Source of the DNA: Tepidiformaceae bacterium
GTDB lineage: Bacteria > Chloroflexota > Dehalococcoidia > Tepidiformales > Tepidiformaceae
DNA: 64,000 nucleotides
Assembly: GCA_958295975.1 (NCBI GenBank)
Contig: OY282446.1
Coordinates: 2,209,289-2,273,288 of the forward strand
Direction: 5' to 3'
Part shown: positions 6,963 to 20,710 of the stretch, one piece after another
Layout: every line of letters begins with the position of its first letter
Numbering within the stretch: position 1 is the first letter of the stretch
Notes under the pieces: generated by a model
Seen by the model: only the letters and a program-made list of their open reading frames with translations
Database searches by the model: none
What the model was told of the DNA's origin: nothing
Position numbers and translations under genes: made by a program

Positions 6963-7712
6963 ATGGAGAAATGGGAGATCAAGAAGAGGGATAGTACCGA
7001 TTCGTTGACCGGCTACGACGTCCTGCGGGACGGATATCTGGTTGCTGTCTTTACTGATCATGATGACGCTTTCGAACATGCCGAGAGGCATAAAAGGACC
7101 GATTCTCAGAATGAGAAGGAATGGGGTGTTCTGACGGGATATACTATCTCTCGGGGAGCGTTTGGGTTTTTGAAGAAAGCTGAAAGGCGAGCGATTGATG
7201 GGATTGGTTCGGACACGAGTCAGCATGTTCTTGATTGTCTCATGGCTGCTCATGATGCCTGTATCATTCTCGAATGGAACCTCAAGACGCTCGTGAGCGC
7301 TTGCGGGATGGATGTTCCGCCAACGCACAGCCTTTCTCGGCTGTATGAAAAGCTTACACAGCAAGCGAAGGACATTCTACTCTTGCACTGGCGCCCGAAG
7401 AAGTATGGACCGCTGCCGGAGTATCTGCGCTCTACGAACGGAAGGTACGAAGCGCTGAGATATGGCCTCTTTGAGAAAGGAGAAATCCCGCCAACCTATC
7501 TTCCGAATTTGATCCACGCGGTTAATGCCGCGAGCTTGGCTATCAAGGATTTGCTCCGTAAACAGGAGCAGTGTCCGCATTGCCGTCTATCCAACATGGT
7601 TATTCCCGGAGCACGTGGAACGCTGTGGTGTATCGGCTGCGAGAAGCGTCGTGAGGATGCTGAAATCGCTATAGCCGAGGTCGTGGCCTGGCAGAAGGGC
7701 ACAGTGATCTAG
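6963..7712 (+). CDS. Unrecognised helical protein with C-terminal zinc ribbon
   Basis: I do not recognise this 249-residue protein. An N-terminal stretch (residues 1-45) could be a small beta-rich domain. Residues from about 75 to 200 are helical and carry THSLSRLYEKL and RYEALRYG. That pattern is loosely like HEPN domains of defence proteins, but I see no clear R-x4-6-H RNase motif. The C-terminus has paired CPHC and CIGC, a probable zinc ribbon. The start is set by AGAAGGAGAAG just before the ATG at 6963. The gene is visibly richer in A/T than the chromosome around it, a sign of transfer. It probably acts with the methyltransferase-HNH protein 33 bases upstream. Confidence 0.65.
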   Translation: MEKWEIKKRDSTDSLTGYDVLRDGYLVAVFTDHDDAFEHAERHKRTDSQNEKEWGVLTGYTISRGAFGFLKKAERRAIDGIGSDTSQHVLDCLMAAHDACIILEWNLKTLVSACGMDVPPTHSLSRLYEKLTQQAKDILLLHWRPKKYGPLPEYLRSTNGRYEALRYGLFEKGEIPPTYLPNLIHAVNAASLAIKDLLRKQEQCPHCRLSNMVIPGARGTLWCIGCEKRREDAEIAIAEVVAWQKGTVI

Positions 7713-7780
7713 GCCCCGCTAACGCCGTGGCGGCGTTGAAGCGCGTGTCCGCGCCCCTGCCCCGTTCGCCCCGCGCGCGC

Positions 7781-7786
7781 TAGACT
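7781..7786 (+). promoter_or_regulatory. -10 element of ispG (TAGACT), leaderless start
   Basis: TAGACT ends six bases before the ispG ATG at 7793, and no ribosome-binding site lies between them. ispG thus has its own promoter, independent of the accessory genes upstream. Confidence 0.6.
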
Positions 7787-7792
7787 GGCCCC

Positions 7793-8950
7793 ATGCAGCG
7801 AGCGCCCAGCAGGCCCGTGCGCGTCGGCTCCGTCACCATCGGCGGCGGCGCCCCCGTCGTCGTCCAGTCCATGGCCGCCACGCGCACGCAGGACGTGGAC
7901 GCCACCGTCGCGCAGGCGCGCATGATCCACGAGGCCGGGGCCGGGCTCGTGCGCGTGGCCGTGGACAGCCGCCGGGACGTGGAGTGCCTGGCGCGCGTGC
8001 GCGAGGCCGTGCCCGAGGCCAACTTCGTCGTCGACCTGCAGGAGAGCTACCGCCTGGTCACGCAGGTCGCCCCCCACGTGGACAAGGTGCGCTACAACCC
8101 GGGCCACCTCTACCACCACGAGAAGGACAAGCCCGTCGCGGAGAAGGTGGCCTTCATCGCCGAGACCGCGGCGAAGCACGACTGCGCCATCCGCGTCGGC
8201 GTCAACTGCGGCTCCGTCGATCCGGACATGGACGCGCGGCACGCGGGCGCGGACGAGCCCGGCCTTGAGGGCGTCACGGCCATGGTCGAGAGCGCGCTCG
8301 ACCACTGCCGCATGCTCGACGACGCCGGTTTCACGCGCTACGTGGTCTCGCTCAAGGACAGCGACCCGCGCAAGGTGATCGCGGGCAACCGGCGCTTCGC
8401 CGAGGCCCGCCCCGACGTGCCGCTCCACCTCGGCGTGACCGAGGCGGGGATGCCGCCGGAGGGCGTGATCAAGACGCGCATCGCCTTCGAGCAGCTGCTC
8501 AGCCGGGGCGTGGGCGACACCATCCGCGTCTCGCTCACGCTGCCCTTCGCGGAGAAGTGGCGCGAGGTGGAGGCGGGCCGCGCCATCCTCGACGACATCG
8601 AGGCCGGGCGCTTCCGCTCCGTGCCCGAGTTCCTCGACGGCGGCCTCAACATCATCAGCTGCCCCAGCTGCAGCCGCGTCGAGAACGAGGCCTTCATCGA
8701 GCTCGCGCAGGACGTGAAGGCGATGACGGCCTACGCGAAGGAGCACGACATAACGATTGCGGTGATGGGCTGCCGCGTGAACGGTCCGGGCGAGACGGAC
8801 GACGCGGACCTGGGCCTCTGGTGCGCGCCCACGTTCGTGAACCTGAAGCGTGGCGAGGAGGAGCTGGGGGCGTACCCGTACGACGAGGTGCTGGGCCGCC
8901 TGAGGGCGGAGCTGGACGCCCTCATCGCCGGGCGGTCGGCTACTTCGTGA
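7793..8950 (+). CDS. ispG: 4-hydroxy-3-methylbut-2-enyl diphosphate synthase
   Basis: This iron-sulfur enzyme makes HMBPP in the non-mevalonate isoprenoid pathway. The 385-residue form is the short bacterial type. Visible are [17 protein letters not shown] at the N-terminus, the barrel motif [10 protein letters not shown] and the cluster ligands in ISCPSCSR and [13 protein letters not shown]. The first ATG gives the expected N-terminus and sits six bases after a TAGACT promoter element. The last 11 bases overlap the convergent methyltransferase gene. It is a housekeeping gene standing between two accessory blocks; dxs of the same pathway is at 22 kb. Confidence 0.96.
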
Positions 8951-10061
8951 AGCCAGCAGGCTTCCGCCACGGCTGTGCACAAGGCAGGTACAGAAGGTCA
9001 ACCTCGCCAGGCTTGGACGTATGATCGCCATACAGGGCTGTTTGTGTCTTGCCGGGATACGGAGCCGCCTTGCTGTAGCACTGATGATTGGGCAGCAGGT
9101 CCGCCATCACGTGGCGAACTGCATCCTTTGTTCTGGAACGGGCATCAGTCCTGATATACCACACGGAGTCCGGGGTGGAGCGGGCGCGTGTGGACCGGAG
9201 GGTTCGGTGCAACATGGCGGTGTACTTCTGAACGTCGCAGAACTTTTGCTCCCCGCTCCAGTCAGGGAGTTCCGAACCCTCCCCCAAGGCCCAGAGCCTC
9301 AGCCAACTGTCAGCTCGATAGTTGGTGACACCAGAGTAGGGTGGCGAGGTGAGAATCAGGTTCGCCTTCCTTGTCTTGGGGAGTGCGAGCGCCGAATCAC
9401 CCAGCAGGATGTCGGCGCAACCAGCACCTCGCGGCAAACCCTTGGCATAGCGCCAGATGGCTCGTCTGCTGAGGAATTCGACAGGAGCGATGTCCGGAGG
9501 AGTGTCGAGTCCGCGGGTGCGCCACCAACGGATGGCGTAGTCGGGCGAAAGCGCACGCGATGCGCGCATTTGATTTGAGAGTCCTTGCCCGGTCTTGGCA
9601 TGAAGATAGTGGAGCAGAAATGCAGCGACCGTGCGGTCGCGACTATCGTTGCGCCAGTGGAGCTCTCGCCGTGCTGCGTTGATGAATCCGAGCGGGCGCG
9701 GAGCAAAGGCGTACGCCTGGAACTCATTAGTCGGCTTGCGATCCGCAGGGCGGACGGCAGACTCGATCTCACCCATTCGCCGGATAACCGTGCTGGAGTC
9801 GGAGTGAGGGCCCGTTTTCGTAGCGGCGTAGACCCAAGCGACGGGGTTGACATCACAACCGATGGCATGGCGTCCCGAAATCATCGCAACATACGGTGCA
9901 GTGCCGCGACCACAGAACGGATCCAAGATGGTATCGCCCGGCTGACTGAACGTCTGCACAGCCCGTCGCGCAAACTTGATCGGGAACATCGCATAGTAGG
10001 GGCCGAGGCGTGCCCAGCGGTCCTCAGCGGTACCGAATCCGTCCAACTCCGGCACATCCAT
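8940..10061 (-). CDS. DNA methyltransferase, probably N4-cytosine type
   Basis: The 373-residue protein has the SAM-binding motif DPFCGRGT (residues 47-54) ahead of the catalytic motif TSPPY (about 238-242). This is the order of alpha/gamma amino-methyltransferases, and TSPPY is typical of N4-cytosine enzymes. The segment between them would recognise the target. It is the last gene of an operon read herA, nurA, methyltransferase. Its ATG shares one base with the nurA stop codon, so it is translationally coupled. In this setting it would mark self DNA against a HerA-NurA nuclease, which is an inference. Its end overlaps ispG by 11 bases tail to tail. Confidence 0.88.
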
Positions 10062-11395
10062 CAGTCTTCCCTGAACAGATCTTCAAGGATCCGCGTTCCC
10101 ATCCTCAGCGGAATGGCAGCGTGTGCGTGGGCCCGCACGAGGGGAGCGAAGCCATCCTCGTAGAGATAGGTGGAGAGATTGTCCATCAAATCCAGCGCTT
10201 CACCGAGTCTCGGGTAGGCATCGTCGTCAACATGGGTGAGGTCCTTGCCCGCGGGATTCACGATGGGCGTCATCACCACCGAGTGCTGTCCCGCCTGATT
10301 CTTGTACAACACTTTCCGGCCGTAGTACGTCGCATCGCCCCAAGGCTTCGCTCCCGGTGGACGGAGCGCGATGTACCGATGGATGTAGTCGAGATCAGGG
10401 GTCAGTGCGGTACCTGCCGCCAATCGTTGGCCGGGGCCTTCCCGCTCGCTCCAGTCCAATGCCTTCAGGTGTTCCAGGAATTGTCCGGACTTCTCCACCC
10501 CAAACAGGAGTATCCCCGGACCGCCTTCCTGAAGGCACTTGCTGTGCAACCGTGCGATTTCATCTTGGATGTAGGTCTTCAGCCAAGCTGGCATTCCGAA
10601 GATGGCCAACGGCCCATCCATGATGAAGGCCGTCGTCCGAAACACGTTCCATCGCTCCAATCGCTCGAAGTACCGCAAAATATTAACCAGCGCAAGGTGT
10701 TCCACCACTGCCTGGACAGCAGTATATGCCTGTTCCGACGATCCATGATCCTCAAAGCGCTCGTGTATCCGGAGACGATCCGTTTCAAAAATGAGTTCGT
10801 CTCGATCACAAGGGCACTGCTCTCTTCCTGCGCCCACGCTGATTTCAGCATCGCAGTCCTCAATAGGACAATGGTAACGAGGGTTGCTCCGTGCAGATGT
10901 TATCGCAGATAGGGTTTCCATCATTGTCTCATGATCGTCATCCAATCGGGAGGAATTAAGGAGATCGTATATCTGCGAACGAAAGAATCGTTGCGCCGAA
11001 TCATTCTTGACTTTTTCGCGCACCACATTGCGGCCAGGGAGAACTTCGTCAAGCGTCCTGCATTGTTCCAAGTCACGGATCGCACTCGGTCGCGGGATCG
11101 TCACGGACGGCAGGTTCCGCAAATCCTCGAGGTTGACCACAATCACAGCAAGCCGCAGCAGCGCGGCCTCGGCACCGGGATATCCGTTGTGGACCTGGGC
11201 CGGGACCGTCGAACCATCAATAACGATCAGGTGCCGGAGATGGTCCGTCCCCCGCGGGGGTTCGATGCACAGCGGGAGCGTGAGATCCTGCTCGGTAAGG
11301 CTATACCTGATCACGCCCTTGAACGCGGTCACGCTCGGGCTCTCAACGAGCCGCCACAGGGAGTCGCCACTGGCAAACTCATCACGGTAGGGCAT
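10061..11395 (-). CDS. nurA: NurA-family nuclease with inserted zinc-like cluster
   Basis: NurA proteins are Mn-dependent 5' to 3' nucleases that work inside a HerA hexamer in DNA end resection. In this 444-residue protein the first acidic motif is LIVIDGS (Asp60). A second is IMDGPLAIFG (Asp260), the pair expected for the RNase H-like NurA fold. Between them (about residues 170-195) is a Cys cluster, CPIEDC then CPC, which could bind zinc and is an addition to the core fold. The ATG lies within the last 14 bases of herA. Adjacent HerA and the coupled methyltransferase strengthen the assignment. The catalytic residues are assigned by pattern only. Confidence 0.82.
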   Translation of the reverse strand: MPYRDEFASGDSLWRLVESPSVTAFKGVIRYSLTEQDLTLPLCIEPPRGTDHLRHLIVIDGSTVPAQVHNGYPGAEAALLRLAVIVVNLEDLRNLPSVTIPRPSAIRDLEQCRTLDEVLPGRNVVREKVKNDSAQRFFRSQIYDLLNSSRLDDDHETMMETLSAITSARSNPRYHCPIEDCDAEISVGAGREQCPCDRDELIFETDRLRIHERFEDHGSSEQAYTAVQAVVEHLALVNILRYFERLERWNVFRTTAFIMDGPLAIFGMPAWLKTYIQDEIARLHSKCLQEGGPGILLFGVEKSGQFLEHLKALDWSEREGPGQRLAAGTALTPDLDYIHRYIALRPPGAKPWGDATYYGRKVLYKNQAGQHSVVMTPIVNPAGKDLTHVDDDAYPRLGEALDLMDNLSTYLYEDGFAPLVRAHAHAAIPLRMGTRILEDLFRED

Positions 11396-13512
11396 CAGGC
11401 CTCCGGGGAGCTTTGAACAAGTCGATCTGGACGGGGACAGTGTAGGGGCTGGACATCATCCGAACCCGGAGGAATCCCGGCTCCTTCACCTGACGAATGC
11501 TCGCGATAAAGTCTTCGAAGTCATTATACTGTTCAAGCACACGGGTCTCCGCCGTGCTATTGAGATGCGCGATGAACCAGTTCTCGGTGTTCTGGAGGAT
11601 GTTGGTTTGGACAGAAGATGGCTCTTGTGTCGAGTAAACGAGACCGATGCCAAACTTGGCTCCCTCTTTTGCTGTGCGGGCCCAAATGTTGCGGGTATCC
11701 TGTTCACTACCCCGAGGAAGGAGAGTATGTGCTTCTTCAACGTAAATGATGACGGATGGCGGTTGTTGGAGGGTGCCATCGGGAGATTTGGACGGGGTGA
11801 TGAAAAAATTCTGTTGCCGTCGAAATATGGCTTGCATGATACGCTGAGCAGACTGCTCGTTCATTGCAGGATCACCAAGGGCTTGGTCTAGAATAACCAA
11901 GCGGCCATTCGAAAGATCTTCAAGAATCGATTGCGTATATTCTTTGGACTGGTCAGGACTATGCCATTGTCGGCATTCTCGAATTGCACGAATCCCGCGG
12001 CTTGCCTCGAAGATACTGAGCAAATTGATGAGGCGATCATCGGTCCAGCTTCGTCCCTTATTCTGTTTCTGATAGTTTTCATTGAATGATTTGAAAGAAG
12101 CCTCTTCGATCCATTTCTTGAGGCTCCGACAGAAGCTGCTAGCAGTGTCCCAAGACGCGAAAAAACCGTCCGCCAACTGAGACACATAAGGTGCCATTTC
12201 TTGCGATGCTTCCATAGCGGACACAACATCTTTCCCAAACAAACCTTTTATGTCGACACTATTGCCAGGCGGAGAAAACCCCGCTTCTGCCAAGATAGAA
12301 CGGTACACGAACAAGGAACGCCGGTACCTTATATACTGCCCGACATCGTTGATGACTTTCGTCTGCACCTCCATATCAGCAGTCCTGAATGCCGAAATAT
12401 AACCAGCGTCTTCTTCTTCGAGGCGGCCATCAATAATCTGTTTTCCGGTATATAGAGTCTGTAGTGCTTCCTCAATAGCGGAAACAGTGGGCGGAGGAAC
12501 AGGAGGGATGGTGCTTCCATAGAAGTTCAGCCGCATGATCTTGCGGTCCGGATCATTGGGATGCGGATTGAGCCCATACGTCACAACATCTCCATCCGTA
12601 CTTGGGTCGATAGATTTGATGTTCTTAAGGCAGCCTTCATCTTGAGGGTTCTCGTTGGCGTACTCCCCATTCGGGTCGATGATGAGCTGCGCCACGCGAA
12701 GCGGGTCCGTCGGGTCGAGGCGCATCTCGAACACGGCCTTGGCAATTGTCTTCGTGGTGTTGGACTTTCCTGTGCGGGTCATCCCGAACAGGGCTGTGCG
12801 CTGGGCAAGGATGTCGCGGGTTGTCATAAAAACGGGAATGGACTCCGGGCTCTCCGGATTGCGGTTCGCCGCCGCATATCGGAGTTTGCCGATGGGAACC
12901 CTGCGCTGACCAGTGGCGCCCAGTGCGAAATTCGCAATACGCTCCAAGGCATCCCCGGCAGGCTTGTAAACCTTCATGCCTTGCCCGGCATAGAAGTTGT
13001 CGATGTCACCGCCGAAGGCCAGCTCGCCGTCCGTCACGCTGAACGTCCCAAGGATTTTGCAACTCACCCCGGCATAGCGCATTTGATGCAGGGTGAACTG
13101 GTCGGTGTTGTGCCCTTCGTCCCAGTTGTCCGGGGAATCCGAGGCGCGTTGGCCCGCCAACAATCGGGCCTGCTGCATCTCGATGTCGTTCGGCAGCGGG
13201 CTTGCTCTTCAGTGCGCGGAGCAGGAGCATGGACAACGGGTTCCCGGAAGCATCGGATGCGCTGTCGGGCCTGAGCCGGGTCGCCAGCAGCAGGCAGCCA
13301 TGAGGAACCCCGCCCACCTGCTGCCGCAGGGCATCGTGGACGAGCACTTCGGCCGTGCCGAAGTCCATGCGGATCAGGTCTCCGACCTGCCGGTCGTCAC
13401 CAAGCAGGCTGAGCAGCTCGTGCGATGCCTCGGCGTGGTCATCGTGAGCCACAACGCTGCCGAGGAACGGATCGCTGGTGCTGGTGTCGGTCACGAGCGA
13501 AGGGTAGCCCAT
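11382..13512 (-). CDS. herA: HerA-family DNA-translocating ATPase, reading frame broken by one base near 13197
   Basis: HerA forms a hexameric ATPase that drives NurA along DNA. The main frame (11382-13178) has Walker A GMTRTGKSNTT and Walker B IIYVEEAH, with a conserved STQEPSS stretch further on. A separate frame from 13512 encodes about 110 residues with the character of the N-terminal HAS-barrel (DPFLGSVVAHDD onwards) and ends its sensible sequence at LLRALKSKP. The main frame resumes as LPNDIEMQQARLL. Removing one base from CCCGCTG (plus strand 13194-13200) joins them into a 709-residue protein of ordinary HerA length. The break may be a sequencing error, a real mutation or a programmed shift. 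The ATG at 13512 is 12 bases after the tmRNA 3' end, with no obvious promoter between. Confidence 0.82.
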
Positions 13513-17182: not shown

Positions 17183-17261
17183 GGGCGCGCATTGTAGCCC
17201 GGCGGCCCCATCGCGCAGCCCCGAACGCCCGTTTTCGCCCGGCGGGGGGATAACCCGCGAA

Positions 17262-17286
17262 CTTCGCACTATTCCCGTTATGTGCG
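17262..17286 (+). repeat. Left copy of a 25-bp perfect inverted repeat
   Basis: CTTCGCACTATTCCCG followed by TTATGTGCG is present here and, exactly inverted, at 18001-18025. This copy ends 32 bases before the ATG at 17319 and may act as its promoter or operator. Confidence 0.9.
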
Positions 17287-17318
17287 TTTTGGCGCGCAAA
17301 TTCCAGGAGGTGCGGTCC

Positions 17319-17687
17319 ATGTTCCGCATTCCCATCCTCATCGCCCTGGTCGCGATCATCGCGACCTTCACCATCGGCATCACCGCCGGGGGCGGCTCGA
17401 CCGCTCACGCGGCGGTGATGGAGTCGTCCGAGCCGTTCGCGGTTTCGGAGGGGAACAGCTACGTGCGCCCCATCTCCCCTTGCTTCCCGACTGAGTACAT
17501 GCCATCCGCACCTCAGTGTGCATCACCAGTGGAGGTCTTCATCCGGCTCCTGCAGAGACTCTTCGACTTCTTCCGTAGTCCGGCACAGCCCGAGGCTCCG
17601 CCGCCACTACCGGGGCCGACGCCAGTCCCAGCCGACGAACAGGGATTCTTCGGCTGTCTTCCCGCGTATCCCTTGGGTCCCTGCTGA
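17319..17687 (+). CDS. Small secreted protein of unknown function
   Basis: The 122-residue product begins MFRIPILIALVAIIATFT and continues to a TAHAA cleavage-like site near residue 32, so it should be exported. The mature part is rich in Pro, Phe and Glu, has four Cys and a PPPLPGPTPVP stretch, and ends CLPAYPLGPC. No known domain is recognised. AGGAGG at 17305-17310 sets the start. The gene lies inside the unit bounded by 25-bp inverted repeats, and its base composition is closer to balanced than that of its neighbours. Confidence 0.65.
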   Translation: MFRIPILIALVAIIATFTIGITAGGGSTAHAAVMESSEPFAVSEGNSYVRPISPCFPTEYMPSAPQCASPVEVFIRLLQRLFDFFRSPAQPEAPPPLPGPTPVPADEQGFFGCLPAYPLGPC

Positions 17688-17710
17688 TCCACCTCCCCCC
17701 CAGATCTTCG

Positions 17711-17744
17711 GCACGCGATTACCAACCCGGTGGTAATCGCGTGC
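17711..17744. terminator. 14-bp perfect hairpin between two small genes
   Basis: GCACGCGATTACCA and its exact complement flank a six-base loop (17725-17730). It lies 23 bases after the secreted-protein gene and 25 before the next start. There is no T run, so it may be a terminator, an RNA-processing site or a dyad bound by a regulator. Confidence 0.6.
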
Positions 17745-17769
17745 TACCATCTCCTCAAGGAGAGCCCCG

Positions 17770-17949
17770 ATGACCCCTGACGAACAAGAGCGCGCCTATG
17801 CCAAACTCGCTACCGACGAACCGAGTCGGGCGGAGGATGCGGCCTTCTCCCTTGCCACTACTCCCATTGGATGGCTTGCTCTTCCGTGGCTTGCCTTCCT
17901 CGCCATCCGGCCCATCATCCCTTGGATCCTCCGTAAACTGCGACGATAA
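17770..17949 (+). CDS. Tiny membrane protein (59 residues)
   Basis: The frame starts at an ATG ten bases after an AAGGAG ribosome-binding site. It gives an acidic N-terminal half (MTPDEQERAYAKL) followed by a hydrophobic helix, IGWLALPWLAFLAIRPIIPW, and a basic end (RKLRR). One membrane helix with a cytoplasmic basic tail is likely. No family is recognised. The good ribosome-binding site and its position between the hairpin and the right-hand inverted repeat support a real gene. Confidence 0.6.
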   Translation: MTPDEQERAYAKLATDEPSRAEDAAFSLATTPIGWLALPWLAFLAIRPIIPWILRKLRR

Positions 17950-17989
17950 CACCAACATCTTCTTGTAACATGGTAATCCTATAATATGA

Positions 17990-18009
17990 TTATGTGCCTA
18001 CGCACATAA
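17990..18009. repeat. 8-bp hairpin overlapping the right inverted repeat
   Basis: TTATGTGC and GCACATAA flank a four-base loop. The TATGTGC core also occurs in both copies of the 25-bp repeat, so the motif is present three times around this unit. Confidence 0.55.
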
Positions 18010-18025
18010 CGGGAATAGTGCGAAG
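18001..18025 (-). repeat. Right copy of the 25-bp perfect inverted repeat
   Basis: This is the exact reverse complement of 17262-17286. The two copies enclose 764 bases with two small genes. No target-site duplication is seen outside them and no transposase lies inside. Confidence 0.9.
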
Positions 18026-18117
18026 GTCGGTGGAACCTGTCAATACGTCATACCACTCCTTCCATACATAACACACGAAATTGCGTGAATCTTCCTCTTG
18101 TGGCCGCACATCCCCGC

Positions 18118-18282
18118 TCATCGCCCCAGCTGCACGACGAGCACGGTGAGGATGCCCGCCACCGCGCCAACGGCCACTGCCACGCCCCACGCGAGCGACC
18201 GCCGGGTTTCCCAGAGATGGAGCCACGCGCCGAGGATGGCGTCACCCGGCCCGTCCCACAGCCGCTGACGGATGCGCTTCAT
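18118..18282 (-). CDS. Tiny membrane protein (54 residues), sixth in the array
   Basis: The frame begins MKRIRQRLWDG and has a basic N-terminal half. A single helix, WGVAVAVGAVAGILTVLVVQ, then ends at LGR. GAGGGA precedes the ATG at 18282. It is the last of six small membrane-protein genes on the minus strand, 13 bases after the gene before it. There is no family match. It is too short for most gene finders, and the support is the ribosome-binding site, helix and operon position. Confidence 0.55.
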   Translation of the reverse strand: MKRIRQRLWDGPGDAILGAWLHLWETRRSLAWGVAVAVGAVAGILTVLVVQLGR

Positions 18283-18295
18283 GGTCTATCGTCCC

Positions 18296-18487
18296 TCAGA
18301 TCAGCAGCAGCGCCACGACCGCCGCCACGGCGACGACCGCCAGCGCGATGGCCGAGCCGGAGCAGCCGAGACAGCCCGTCGCGCAGCCGAGCGCCTGGAG
18401 CGGGCCCTGCGCCTCTTCCCAGCCCACGTTGGGTTCGGGTTTCGGGACGGGCTCGATCTCCGGCGCGCGTTCGGGATGCTCGGACAT
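18296..18487 (-). CDS. Tiny Cys-rich membrane protein, copy 2 (63 residues)
   Basis: The protein starts MSEHPERAPEIEPVPKPEP, then has a Gly/Cys turn (ALGCATGCLGCSGS) leading into one Ala/Val helix that ends AAVVALLLI. It is almost identical to the product of 18690-18881, so one copy arose by recent duplication. The N-terminal half is acidic and Pro-rich, likely extended. The function is unknown. The start at 18487 is fixed by the shared MSEHPE beginning of the two copies. Confidence 0.65.
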   Translation of the reverse strand: MSEHPERAPEIEPVPKPEPNVGWEEAQGPLQALGCATGCLGCSGSAIALAVVAVAAVVALLLI

Positions 18488-18500
18488 TCGGGGGCCTTCC

Positions 18501-18683
18501 CTACCGAGGCAATTCGGGGGCCACGCTGAGCACCGTGATGATAGCAAGGAGCAGCCCGATGACAAGCGTCACGATCCAGCGGAACAGCGCGTTGGCTTCC
18601 CCCAAAGACACAAGCAGGGCCCAGAGAGCGCGACAGGGATCACTGAGAACGCGCTCGACGAAGCGCCCCACCTTGCTCAGCAT
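18501..18683 (-). CDS. Tiny membrane protein between the duplicated copies (60 residues)
   Basis: The frame MLSKVGRFVERVLSDPCRAL is followed by a strongly hydrophobic helix with IVTLVIGLLLAIITVLSV and a short PELPR end. GAGGAA lies just before the ATG at 18683. It sits between two near-identical genes with gaps of only 6 and 13 bases, so it belongs to the same transcript. It has an amphipathic N-terminal helix and one membrane helix. No family is recognised. Confidence 0.6.
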   Translation of the reverse strand: MLSKVGRFVERVLSDPCRALWALLVSLGEANALFRWIVTLVIGLLLAIITVLSVAPELPR

Positions 18684-18689
18684 CGTTCC

Positions 18690-18881
18690 TCAGCTCAGCA
18701 GCAGCGCCACCACCGCCGCCACGGCGACGACCGCCAGCGCGACCACCGAGCCGGAGAAGCCGAGACAGCCCGTCGCGCAGCCGAGCGCCTTAAACGGCCC
18801 GCGCTCCTCTTCCCAGCCGACGTTGGGTTCGGGCTTCGGGACGGGCTCGATCTCCGGCGCGCGTTCGGGATGCTCGGACAT
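18690..18881 (-). CDS. Tiny Cys-rich membrane protein, copy 1 (63 residues)
   Basis: This is a near-identical paralogue of 18296-18487. It has the same MSEHPERAPEIEPVPKPEP start and then ALGCATGCLGFSGS and a C-terminal helix ending AAVVALLLS. Differences from the other copy cluster in the middle and at the last residue. Both copies keep an intact frame, which suggests selection to retain the protein. It lies eight bases downstream of the 50-residue gene above it. Confidence 0.65.
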   Translation of the reverse strand: MSEHPERAPEIEPVPKPEPNVGWEEERGPFKALGCATGCLGFSGSVVALAVVAVAAVVALLLS

Positions 18882-18889
18882 GGATGGTC

Positions 18890-19042
18890 CTAGGGGCACC
18901 TGTGGACGAGCACATGCCCGAAGTACAGACCCGCGAACGTGAACGTACCGATCAGCGCGCCGCTGAGGAGCCGGTCCTTCCAGGTGCGCGGATGCGGCCA
19001 CGTCAGAATCCAGAGGATGCGGTGTGCGATGCTGCGGGGCAT
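18890..19042 (-). CDS. Tiny membrane protein (50 residues)
   Basis: The frame starts MPRSIAHRILWILTW and then has LLSGALIGTFTFAGLYFGHV, a single membrane helix, ending HRCP. A strong AGGAGGAGG lies just before the ATG at 19042. Its start is 15 bases after the stop of the 64-residue gene and its stop is eight bases before copy 1. No relatives are recognised. Confidence 0.6.
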   Translation of the reverse strand: MPRSIAHRILWILTWPHPRTWKDRLLSGALIGTFTFAGLYFGHVLVHRCP

Positions 19043-19057
19043 GGGCGTCTCCTCCTC

Positions 19058-19252
19058 CTACATCAGCAACAGCGCCACGACCGCCGCCGCGGCGATGGCC
19101 ATGAGGGCGATGGCCGAACCGAAGCAGCCCAGCGCGGCGCAGCCACAGCCCTCGAGAGCCACGCTCAAGCCCGCCTGCTTCTCCCAGCCGGGGTCGTCGT
19201 GGCGCTCGTGCCGCCGGGGCGGATCGGGCGGGAGCCGCGGCGGTTCGAGCAT
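19058..19252 (-). CDS. Tiny Cys-rich membrane protein, divergent copy (64 residues)
   Basis: This is the first gene of the array. A Pro/Arg/His-rich N-terminus (MLEPPRLPPDPPRRHERHDD) leads to CGCAALGCFGSAIAL and a helix ending AAVVALLLM. The Cys-turn plus helix plus AVVALLL ending is shared with the 63-residue copies, so the three form one family with variable N-terminal halves. The function is unknown. Confidence 0.6.
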   Translation of the reverse strand: MLEPPRLPPDPPRRHERHDDPGWEKQAGLSVALEGCGCAALGCFGSAIALMAIAAAAVVALLLM

Positions 19253-19306
19253 GGCCGCGCCACTCTACCGAAACGCCCGCACGGTGGGCCGGAGGCGCTA
19301 ACGCGG

Positions 19307-19732
19307 TCAGGGGCGATCCGGATGGGGGACGGGCCTCAGTTCGAGGTCGCGAATCGCGATGAAGTCATCGGGGTTCGTCGTATACAGCGGGAGTCCGTTG
19401 GCGATGGCAATGGCGGCGATGAGTGCATCGTAGGCGCGCGCGGCGGACTTGCGGCCAGCGCCCCGAAGATCGGCGGAGACCTGTCCGAACACCCTCGCGG
19501 CGGCCTGATCGAAGGGGAGCGCCTCGAAGTCGGCCTCGGCCTGCTGAATCTGGGCCTGGCGGCGGGCTCGTTCCGCATCGGTGACGGCGGCGAGTGGGCC
19601 AGCGGAGAGCTCGGCGAGGGTGATCGTGGTGATCAGTGGCTCTGCGGGGAGCGTTCCGGGGTCCGTGAGGCGAGGGAGCAGGATCACGGTATTCGTGTCG
19701 AGAATGCCAGCGCCGTTGTCGTTGGATGTCAC
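19307..19732 (-). CDS. vapC: PIN-domain toxin, VapC-like
   Basis: VapC toxins are RNases with three or four acidic residues. This 141-residue protein has ILDTNTVI (first Asp), TLAELSAGP (Glu), YDALIAAIAI (Asp) and TTNPDDF (Asp), so the active site looks complete. The GTG start at 19730-19732 overlaps the antitoxin stop in a GTGA, typical of coupled toxin-antitoxin pairs. It borders the small-membrane-protein array. Confidence 0.88.
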   Translation of the reverse strand: MTSNDNGAGILDTNTVILLPRLTDPGTLPAEPLITTITLAELSAGPLAAVTDAERARRQAQIQQAEADFEALPFDQAAARVFGQVSADLRGAGRKSAARAYDALIAAIAIANGLPLYTTNPDDFIAIRDLELRPVPHPDRP

Positions 19733-19965
19733 AGGGACGGGTCGATGAGGCGGTCGATGTCACGCCGGAGCGCGGCCGGATCGACATGGGGCAGCCGTCG
19801 CCAGCGCTCCAGCAATGCCGCCGGAGCCGGTCCCCTGCGCGGCAGCGGGCGGATCTCCGCGACGGGGCGGCCAGCCCGGCTCACGATGAGACGCTCGCCC
19901 GCCTGCACGCGATCAAGGACGGCGCCGCCGTGATTGCGGAGTTCCCCAACCGTGACCGTGTCCAT
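19729..19965 (-). CDS. Phd/YefM-type antitoxin of the vapC above
   Basis: The 78-residue protein begins MDTVTVGELRNHGGAVLDRV and continues with IVSRAGRPVAEIRPL, the DNA-binding fold of Phd/YefM antitoxins. A Pro/Arg-rich C-terminal arm would cover the toxin. The ATG at 19965 is preferred because a TACACT element ends six bases upstream. The pair is probably autoregulated at that promoter. Confidence 0.87.
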   Translation of the reverse strand: MDTVTVGELRNHGGAVLDRVQAGERLIVSRAGRPVAEIRPLPRRGPAPAALLERWRRLPHVDPAALRRDIDRLIDPSL

Positions 19966-19971
19966 GCCTTC

Positions 19972-19977
19972 AGTGTA
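19972..19977 (-). promoter_or_regulatory. -10 element of the vapBC pair (TACACT), leaderless start
   Basis: On the minus strand TACACT ends six bases before the antitoxin ATG. It lies back to back with the two-component promoter at 20017. Confidence 0.6.
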
Positions 19978-20016
19978 GCACCGATGCGTCTTTACCGGGC
20001 CTTCCCCTGCGCCCGC

Positions 20017-20022
20017 TACACT
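20017..20022 (+). promoter_or_regulatory. -10 element of the two-component operon (TACACT)
   Basis: TACACT lies 29 bases before the response-regulator ATG. It leaves a short leader with GCGGGAGGA as ribosome-binding site. Confidence 0.5.
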
Positions 20023-20050
20023 GGCGGGAACGGAGCGGGAGGATTCGCCC

Positions 20051-20710
20051 ATGCGCGTGCTCGTGGTCGAGGACGAGGAGCCCATCGCCTCCGCCGTGGC
20101 GCGCGGGCTGAGGCAGCTCGGCTACGAGGCCGACACCGCCGCCGACGGCGTGGAGGCGCTGGAGATGGCGGGCGCGCACGACTACGACGTGGTCTGCCTC
20201 GACCTCAACCTGCCGCTCATCGACGGCATCGAGGTGTGCCGCAGGCTGCGCGCCGAGCGCTTCCCCGGCCGGATCATTATGTTGACCGCGCGCAGCGGCA
20301 TCCACGAGCGCGTGGAGGGGCTGGACCAGGGCGCCGACGATTACCTGGTGAAGCCCTTCGCCCTGAGCGAGCTGGCCGCGCGCATCCGCGCCGTGACCCG
20401 CCGCGCGGGCGGCGCGGATGCCACGCTGCGCGCGCGCGGGCTGGAGCTGGACCCCGACACGAACCGCGTGCGGCGCGAGGGCGTGGACGTGCACCTCACG
20501 CCCCGGGAGTTCGAGATCCTGCACTACCTGGCGCGGCACGAGGGGCGCGCCGTGCCCCAGGAGGAGCTGATCGAGCGGCTCTGGGGGGAGCGCGCCAGCC
20601 CCTTCACGCAGACCGTGAAGGTGCACATGAACAACCTGCGCCGCAAGCTCAACGACGGCTTCGGCCAGCCGCTCATCGCCACCGTGCGGGGGAAGGGCTA
20701 CGTCCTCTAG
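20051..20710 (+). CDS. OmpR/PhoB-family response regulator
   Basis: The 219-residue protein has a receiver domain (VVEDEE, phosphoacceptor Asp51 in CLDLNLP, Lys in DYLVKPF) and a C-terminal winged helix. The latter shows LTPREFEILHYLARH and VRGKGYVL, the DNA-binding signature of OmpR-type regulators. The sensor kinase follows 28 bases later on the same strand. The signal and target genes cannot be told from sequence. Confidence 0.95.
   Translation: MRVLVVEDEEPIASAVARGLRQLGYEADTAADGVEALEMAGAHDYDVVCLDLNLPLIDGIEVCRRLRAERFPGRIIMLTARSGIHERVEGLDQGADDYLVKPFALSELAARIRAVTRRAGGADATLRARGLELDPDTNRVRREGVDVHLTPREFEILHYLARHEGRAVPQEELIERLWGERASPFTQTVKVHMNNLRRKLNDGFGQPLIATVRGKGYVL

Follow-up and report, generated by a model that had tools for sequence, protein, structure and literature searches.

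A probable accessory cassette of small membrane-protein genes, arranged as three A-B units beside a dif-like Xer site in a Tepidiformaceae bacterium

The peptides of type I toxin-antitoxin systems are about 30-70 residues long with one membrane helix and are sometimes found in tandem copies, and the six proteins considered here, encoded in an array within a window of 64,000 nucleotides (the whole stretch of DNA that was analysed) from a Tepidiformaceae bacterium, are alike in this. Toxins of the Hok, TisB, Ldr and Fst type (review: PMC8309996) are single peptides with antisense RNA antitoxins, whereas in the array two protein families, here called A and B, alternate. Searches of Pfam, NCBIfam and PHROGs revealed no sequence relation of the array proteins to known type I toxin families. 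Phage holin/antiholin pairs and class IIb two-peptide bacteriocins also offer a likeness, with two small membrane-active partners encoded by adjacent genes, but neither lysis genes, leader peptides, an exporter nor sequence similarity to them was found here, and no endolysin or other lysis or phage gene was recognised between 17.2 and 20.1 kb.

Small genes are also known in association with Xer recombination sites. The plasmid dif (pdif) modules of Acinetobacter are short segments with an XerC/XerD site at either end, the two being inversely oriented, of equal spacer and able to recombine, and they often hold toxin-antitoxin pairs and small uncharacterised ORFs (PMC13141974). A 712-base segment next to the array (17288-17999) has the same shape (cf. 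PMC13141974), since it is bounded by inverted Xer-type sites with the same spacer. Unlike the pdif modules it is chromosomal, lies at the native dif-like site of a bacterium from an unrelated phylum and belongs to no alternating series of modules, and the array is situated outside the pair of inverted sites. Integrative mobile elements may likewise use Xer, for example LME-1 at the dif site of Legionella, where the neighbourhood of the site is variable (PMC9765430); the present locus resembles this case in its presumably foreign DNA at a conserved dif-type site that may be close to the terminus. Direct repeats of the site would, however, be expected to flank such an element, while the second copy is inverted in this case, and no mobilisation genes were noticed.

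The array consists of six ATG frames on the minus strand (19252..18118), read in the order A1-B1-A2-B2-A3-B3 (Table 1), with gaps between consecutive frames of 15, 8, 6, 13 and 13 bases. This agrees with an earlier annotation made from the letters of the window only (hereafter the sequence-only reading), which had reported six packed frames of 50-64 codons, with gaps of 6-15 bases, at these positions. The same annotation gave most of the frames a ribosome-binding site, which was found in part: a Shine-Dalgarno-like sequence is clear for B1 and plausible for A3, B2 and B3, but weak for A2, and none was found upstream of the start of A1. No promoter or terminator could be resolved for the array, the sole promoter-like match on its strand in the region being inside B2. 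That gene finders miss arrays of this kind, as was also proposed, is plausible.

Table 1. Positions of the array, its neighbouring genes and the dif-like sites in the window
Feature	Position	Strand	Length	Description
Native dif-like Xer site	17261..17286	+		core TTCGCACTATTCCCGTTATGTGCG; adjoins conserved PD40 beta-propeller gene
122-aa ORF	17319..17687	+	122 aa	signal-peptide-like N-terminus, strong Shine-Dalgarno, Cys/Pro-rich end; codon score slightly negative
Perfect hairpin	17709..17746	+		15 pairs as RNA, 6-base loop, z -6.8 vs shuffles
59-aa ORF	17770..17949	+	59 aa	one hydrophobic stretch, Shine-Dalgarno, weak coding score
Second dif-like site, inverted	18001..18024	-	24 bases	copy with identical central bases; unique to this genome (G000) in the genus
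B3	18118..18282	-	54 codons (54 aa)	N-terminus basic and amphipathic; a single membrane helix
A3	18296..18487	-	63 codons (63 aa)	87% identity to A2
B2	18501..18683	-	60 codons (60 aa)	amphipathic helix at the N-terminus plus a single membrane helix; B3 relative
A2	18690..18881	-	63 codons (63 aa)	acidic tail rich in Pro, GCATGCLG motif, membrane anchor at the C-terminus
B1	18890..19042	-	50 codons (50 aa)	basic N-terminus, single weak membrane helix, strong Shine-Dalgarno AGGAGGAG
A1	19058..19252	-	64 codons (64 aa)	charged tail rich in Pro, Gly/Cys motif, membrane anchor at the C-terminus
PIN-domain (VapC-like) toxin gene	19307..19732	-		Pfam PF01850, E 4.6e-9; VapC-type NCBIfam matches below cut-off
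PHD/YefM-type antitoxin gene	19729..20085	-		Pfam PF02604 and TIGR01552, both above cut-off

When chains of same-strand ATG frames of 40-75 codons, each with a membrane helix and with gaps of <=25 bases, were counted, the longest had six members in the array; the maximum was one across 40 blocks of 20 kb from the same genome (800 kb, both strands) and across 3000 dinucleotide-model randomisations of the region. GC3 is 0.79-0.92 in all six frames, with GC2 the lowest, and with codon log-odds derived from 398 long frames of the same genome all six score positive, while each of the five alternative readings scores below zero or close to it. Taken individually the frames are indecisive, as 2-33% of short false frames inside genes reach an equal codon score, and it is the row of six, rather than any single frame, that is decisive for coding. 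Large plus-strand ORFs over the array (18085..18942 and others) were taken as antisense openness of high-GC DNA. An excess of synonymous changes, suggested in the sequence-only reading as a check on the frames, is weakly visible, with a dN/dS of about 0.46 for A2/A3 and of 0.73-0.85 for A1 against A2/A3, over very few sites.

Alignments revealed that the A proteins form one family of three members, two of them near-identical, as had been noticed before; A2 and A3 are the close pair (Table 1) and A1 shares 43% identity with them. The A genes are at the same time a DNA repeat, in which A2 and A3 share 200 nt at 92%, beginning at the start codon and extending 8 bases beyond the stop, and 71 nt are shared at 85-92% by the three copies. 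For the B proteins, comparison with shuffles that keep the helix composition supported kinship between B2 and B3 (p = 0.001), the kinship of B1 being marginal or absent (p = 0.08 with B3 and 0.53 with B2). The three are thus not unrelated frames, a point missed in the sequence-only reading, B2 and B3 being related to judge from their sequences. Because A1-A3 are one family and the interleaved B2 and B3 are related, the array is regarded as three A-B pairs; in two of these units A is nearly constant and B strongly diverged.

All six proteins have a single hydrophobic stretch, in line with the one helix per frame claimed for them, with a best 19-residue Kyte-Doolittle mean of 2.5-3.0, but in B1 this stretch is marginal at 1.52. 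The A proteins combine a charged Pro-rich tail and a GW motif with a Gly/Cys motif, placed at the boundary of the membrane, and with a C-terminal helix that terminates at the last or second-last residue, in the style of tail-anchored proteins. The B proteins have a basic N-terminus, one helix and a short tail, and in B2 and B3 the N-terminus is amphipathic with a moment of 0.53-0.60 across 18 residues. The N-terminal net charges are -2, -4 and -5 for A and +4, +1 and +3 for B. AlphaFold predicts the C-terminal helix of A with a pLDDT of about 90 there, and N-terminal and membrane helices in B2, in both cases at modest confidence from alignments of two or three sequences.

Relatives of A were found in the own genome only: a profile search gave none in about 700 other genomes (family 38, class 393, phylum 400), and two GTDB contig scans gave none either, the short proteins and the collections used limiting this absence. 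The single A match in the phylum (G727, E 6e-5) falls within a Xaa-Pro-aminopeptidase-like frame and was regarded as chance. A B profile gave no credible relative in the family genomes, where weak matches had E-values of 0.02 or worse and the best one, sitting on a frame that overlaps a HAD-like gene, was rejected. A2 has no match in phages, plasmids or viral contigs, A1 and B2 have none in viral contigs and the 2-kb segment has none among phages or plasmids. In Pfam, NCBIfam, PADLOC, PHROGs and PDB there was no credible match to the array proteins, so the roles of pore former, membrane-stress sensor or defence effector that had been proposed for them find no direct support; the Pfam hit Trypan_PARP on A2/A3 (E 0.0015; at 19 bits far under its cut-off of 100) is a low-complexity Glu-Pro match. 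An Rfam scan of 17200-20200 found nothing, and chains of small membrane ORFs similar to the array are absent from 57 other dif-like loci, most of them just 3 kb long.

The native dif-like Xer site next to the PD40 gene was compared throughout the class. Its arms, TCGCACTAT-nnnn-GTTATGT, are nearly constant and its centre is variable (49 sites), and the core TCGCACTATnnnnGTTATGT occurs in one copy in each other genome of the genus and in two copies in the genome of the window (G000). With <=1 mismatch the site was identified in 210 of the 393 class genomes, single-copy with very few exceptions, and a reversed-sequence control gave matches in a handful of class genomes only. In 11 class members with complete or near-complete genomes the site and dnaA are separated by about 0.33-0.49 of the genome, and in G060, of the same family, by about 0.35. 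In G000 the site is located at 2.23 Mb of 2.40 and the best dnaA-like gene, which scores below the family cut-off, at 363 kb, 0.22 away; the GC skew of this genome is ambiguous, turning clearly once, near 1.1 Mb, and running flat around the site. The GTTATG half resembles the XerD arm of known dif sites. Constant arms, a variable centre, one copy per genome with few exceptions and, in the class members just named, a position far from dnaA are the reasons for naming the site dif-like, and on these sequence features it is likely to be the chromosome-dimer-resolution (dif) site. The reading of the conserved 22-mer as a mere promoter of the PD40 gene is disfavoured by its once-per-genome presence across the class and its variable centre, by its location next to an S41 peptidase gene in one genus, and also by the distance from dnaA in those class members.

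In the search for dnaA the best matches to the DnaA family in G000 (G000:C1:362597-363814) and G060 (G060:C1:765649-766872) scored 171-207 bits, against a curated cut-off of 344, and 443-473 bits were reached in other families of the class. In this family DnaA may be unusually divergent, or those genes may not be true dnaA.

The second, inverted dif-like copy, whose 24 bases correspond to 17263-17286 of the native site, lies about 95 bases downstream of B3, and the 712-base segment between the two sites should be invertible if both of them function. It holds two plus-strand ORFs with a perfect hairpin in between (Table 1). The 122-aa ORF has no family match. The hairpin is single-copy in the window, is followed by no T run and has no copy in viral contigs. 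From 18025 to 19400, across the array and on to its PIN side, no third dif-like site was found, the best other score being negative. The array is thus not enclosed by two dif-like sites, and its delivery by Xer recombination is conjecture.

The array lies between this inverted site and a PHD-PIN gene pair, in which the two genes overlap by 4 bases, as in type II toxin-antitoxin systems, and the distance from the end of the PIN gene to A1, which follows it on the same strand, is 54 bases. The genes flanking the interval, encoding the PD40 protein and a response regulator, are kept in 8 of 8 genomes of the same genus, and the content in between differs. In G004 and G006 (intervals L019 and L020) the PHD-PIN pair is directly beside the dif-like site, without the array; G001, G002 and G007 have a different pair, VapB/VapC-like by eye, G003 a LysM-type lipoprotein and G005 frames without assignment, and in G008 the interval is almost empty (about 250 bases). 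Varied cargo together with a conserved dif-like site marks the interval as a place of variable cargo in which toxin-antitoxin genes abound. Within the genus the array, the 712-base segment and the second inverted site are present only in G000, and from the absence in all relatives we infer a gain of the array, not a loss elsewhere.

A further row of four minus-strand frames was observed elsewhere in the window (7709-13178), encoding a conserved 440-aa protein, an N4/N6 DNA methylase, a 444-aa protein of no assigned function and a HerA-like ATPase. The 440-aa protein is kept in the genus, and because the other three frames were not seen in the compared stretches of relatives (about 8 kb), the row may be a defence-type insertion.

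As regards location and anatomy, the array is very probably an accessory cassette of three A-B units at a dif-side hotspot. A lineage-specific cassette would have entered, or expanded within, the dif-side cargo interval downstream of the PHD-PIN pair. Close spacing and the Shine-Dalgarno sequences suggest that each A-B pair would be translated together and that A, with its acidic tail, and B, with its basic or amphipathic N-terminus, oppositely charged outside the membrane, probably form complexes at it; the alternation of the two families likewise suggests action as a pair. Beside toxin-antitoxin genes, at a cargo hotspot, a conflict or selfish role is more likely than a housekeeping one, and B may be a membrane-active peptide restrained by the constant partner A, as selfish or defensive cargo like the adjacent toxin-antitoxin genes. 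Pairing of A with B, membrane activity, the parts of toxin and neutraliser and an arrival through Xer recombination are inferred; no homologue was found elsewhere, of known function or otherwise, so that what A and B do is read from their anatomy. A membrane-active B neutralised by A is the leading candidate for the function, tentatively held, and the weakly visible purifying selection and the scant similarity of B1 to B2 and B3 count against it. There is a slim chance that the array is a new membrane-peptide conflict system, in which A-B units, with A tail-anchored, homogenised and nearly constant and B membrane-active and fast-diverging, have been multiplied beside dif and give several specificities per lineage.

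In our tentative ranking this function is followed by an accessory or regulatory one and then by a phage or plasmid remnant, the remainder going to functions not listed here. It is conceivable that A and B are non-toxic membrane proteins, regulators or stabilisers, of the PHD-PIN operon or of envelope physiology that were amplified in tandem. Many known small bitopic proteins are regulators, and cotranscription is possible as the array starts so close behind the PIN gene, on the same strand; yet the array is dispensable to PHD-PIN, since the pair occurs without it in two same-genus genomes, and divergence is far greater among the B copies than among the A copies, which is unusual for simple dosage amplification. 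A remnant of a phage or plasmid that integrated at dif, with A and B as holin/antiholin-like or superinfection-exclusion peptides, would account for the dif-adjacent position, the duplicated inverted site and the small membrane proteins, but is rather unlikely given the lack of matches in phages, plasmids, viral contigs and PHROGs reported above and the lack of any phage gene noticed around the array.

Exported partners in a secreted, bacteriocin-like array are improbable. Small hydrophobic or amphipathic peptide pairs are indeed repeated with variation, but no double-glycine leader or signal peptide was seen by eye, the anchor of A is placed at the C-terminal end as in tail-anchored proteins and neither a transporter nor a processing protease gene is located beside the array. 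Least credible of all is that the frames are spurious and the array non-coding or the product of a repeat: the dN/dS signal is weak and there are no relatives in which to follow conservation, but six same-strand frames in succession, closely packed and each with the codon signature of a gene, stand against a background of one.

The class-wide dif-like consensus can be used as a search tool. If a membrane-active B restrained by A is confirmed, a two-peptide membrane cassette that is invisible to family libraries would be added to the dif-side cargo, and the dif-side interval of this clade would be a hotspot for toxin-antitoxin genes and orphan small-protein genes that can be found by looking beside dif.
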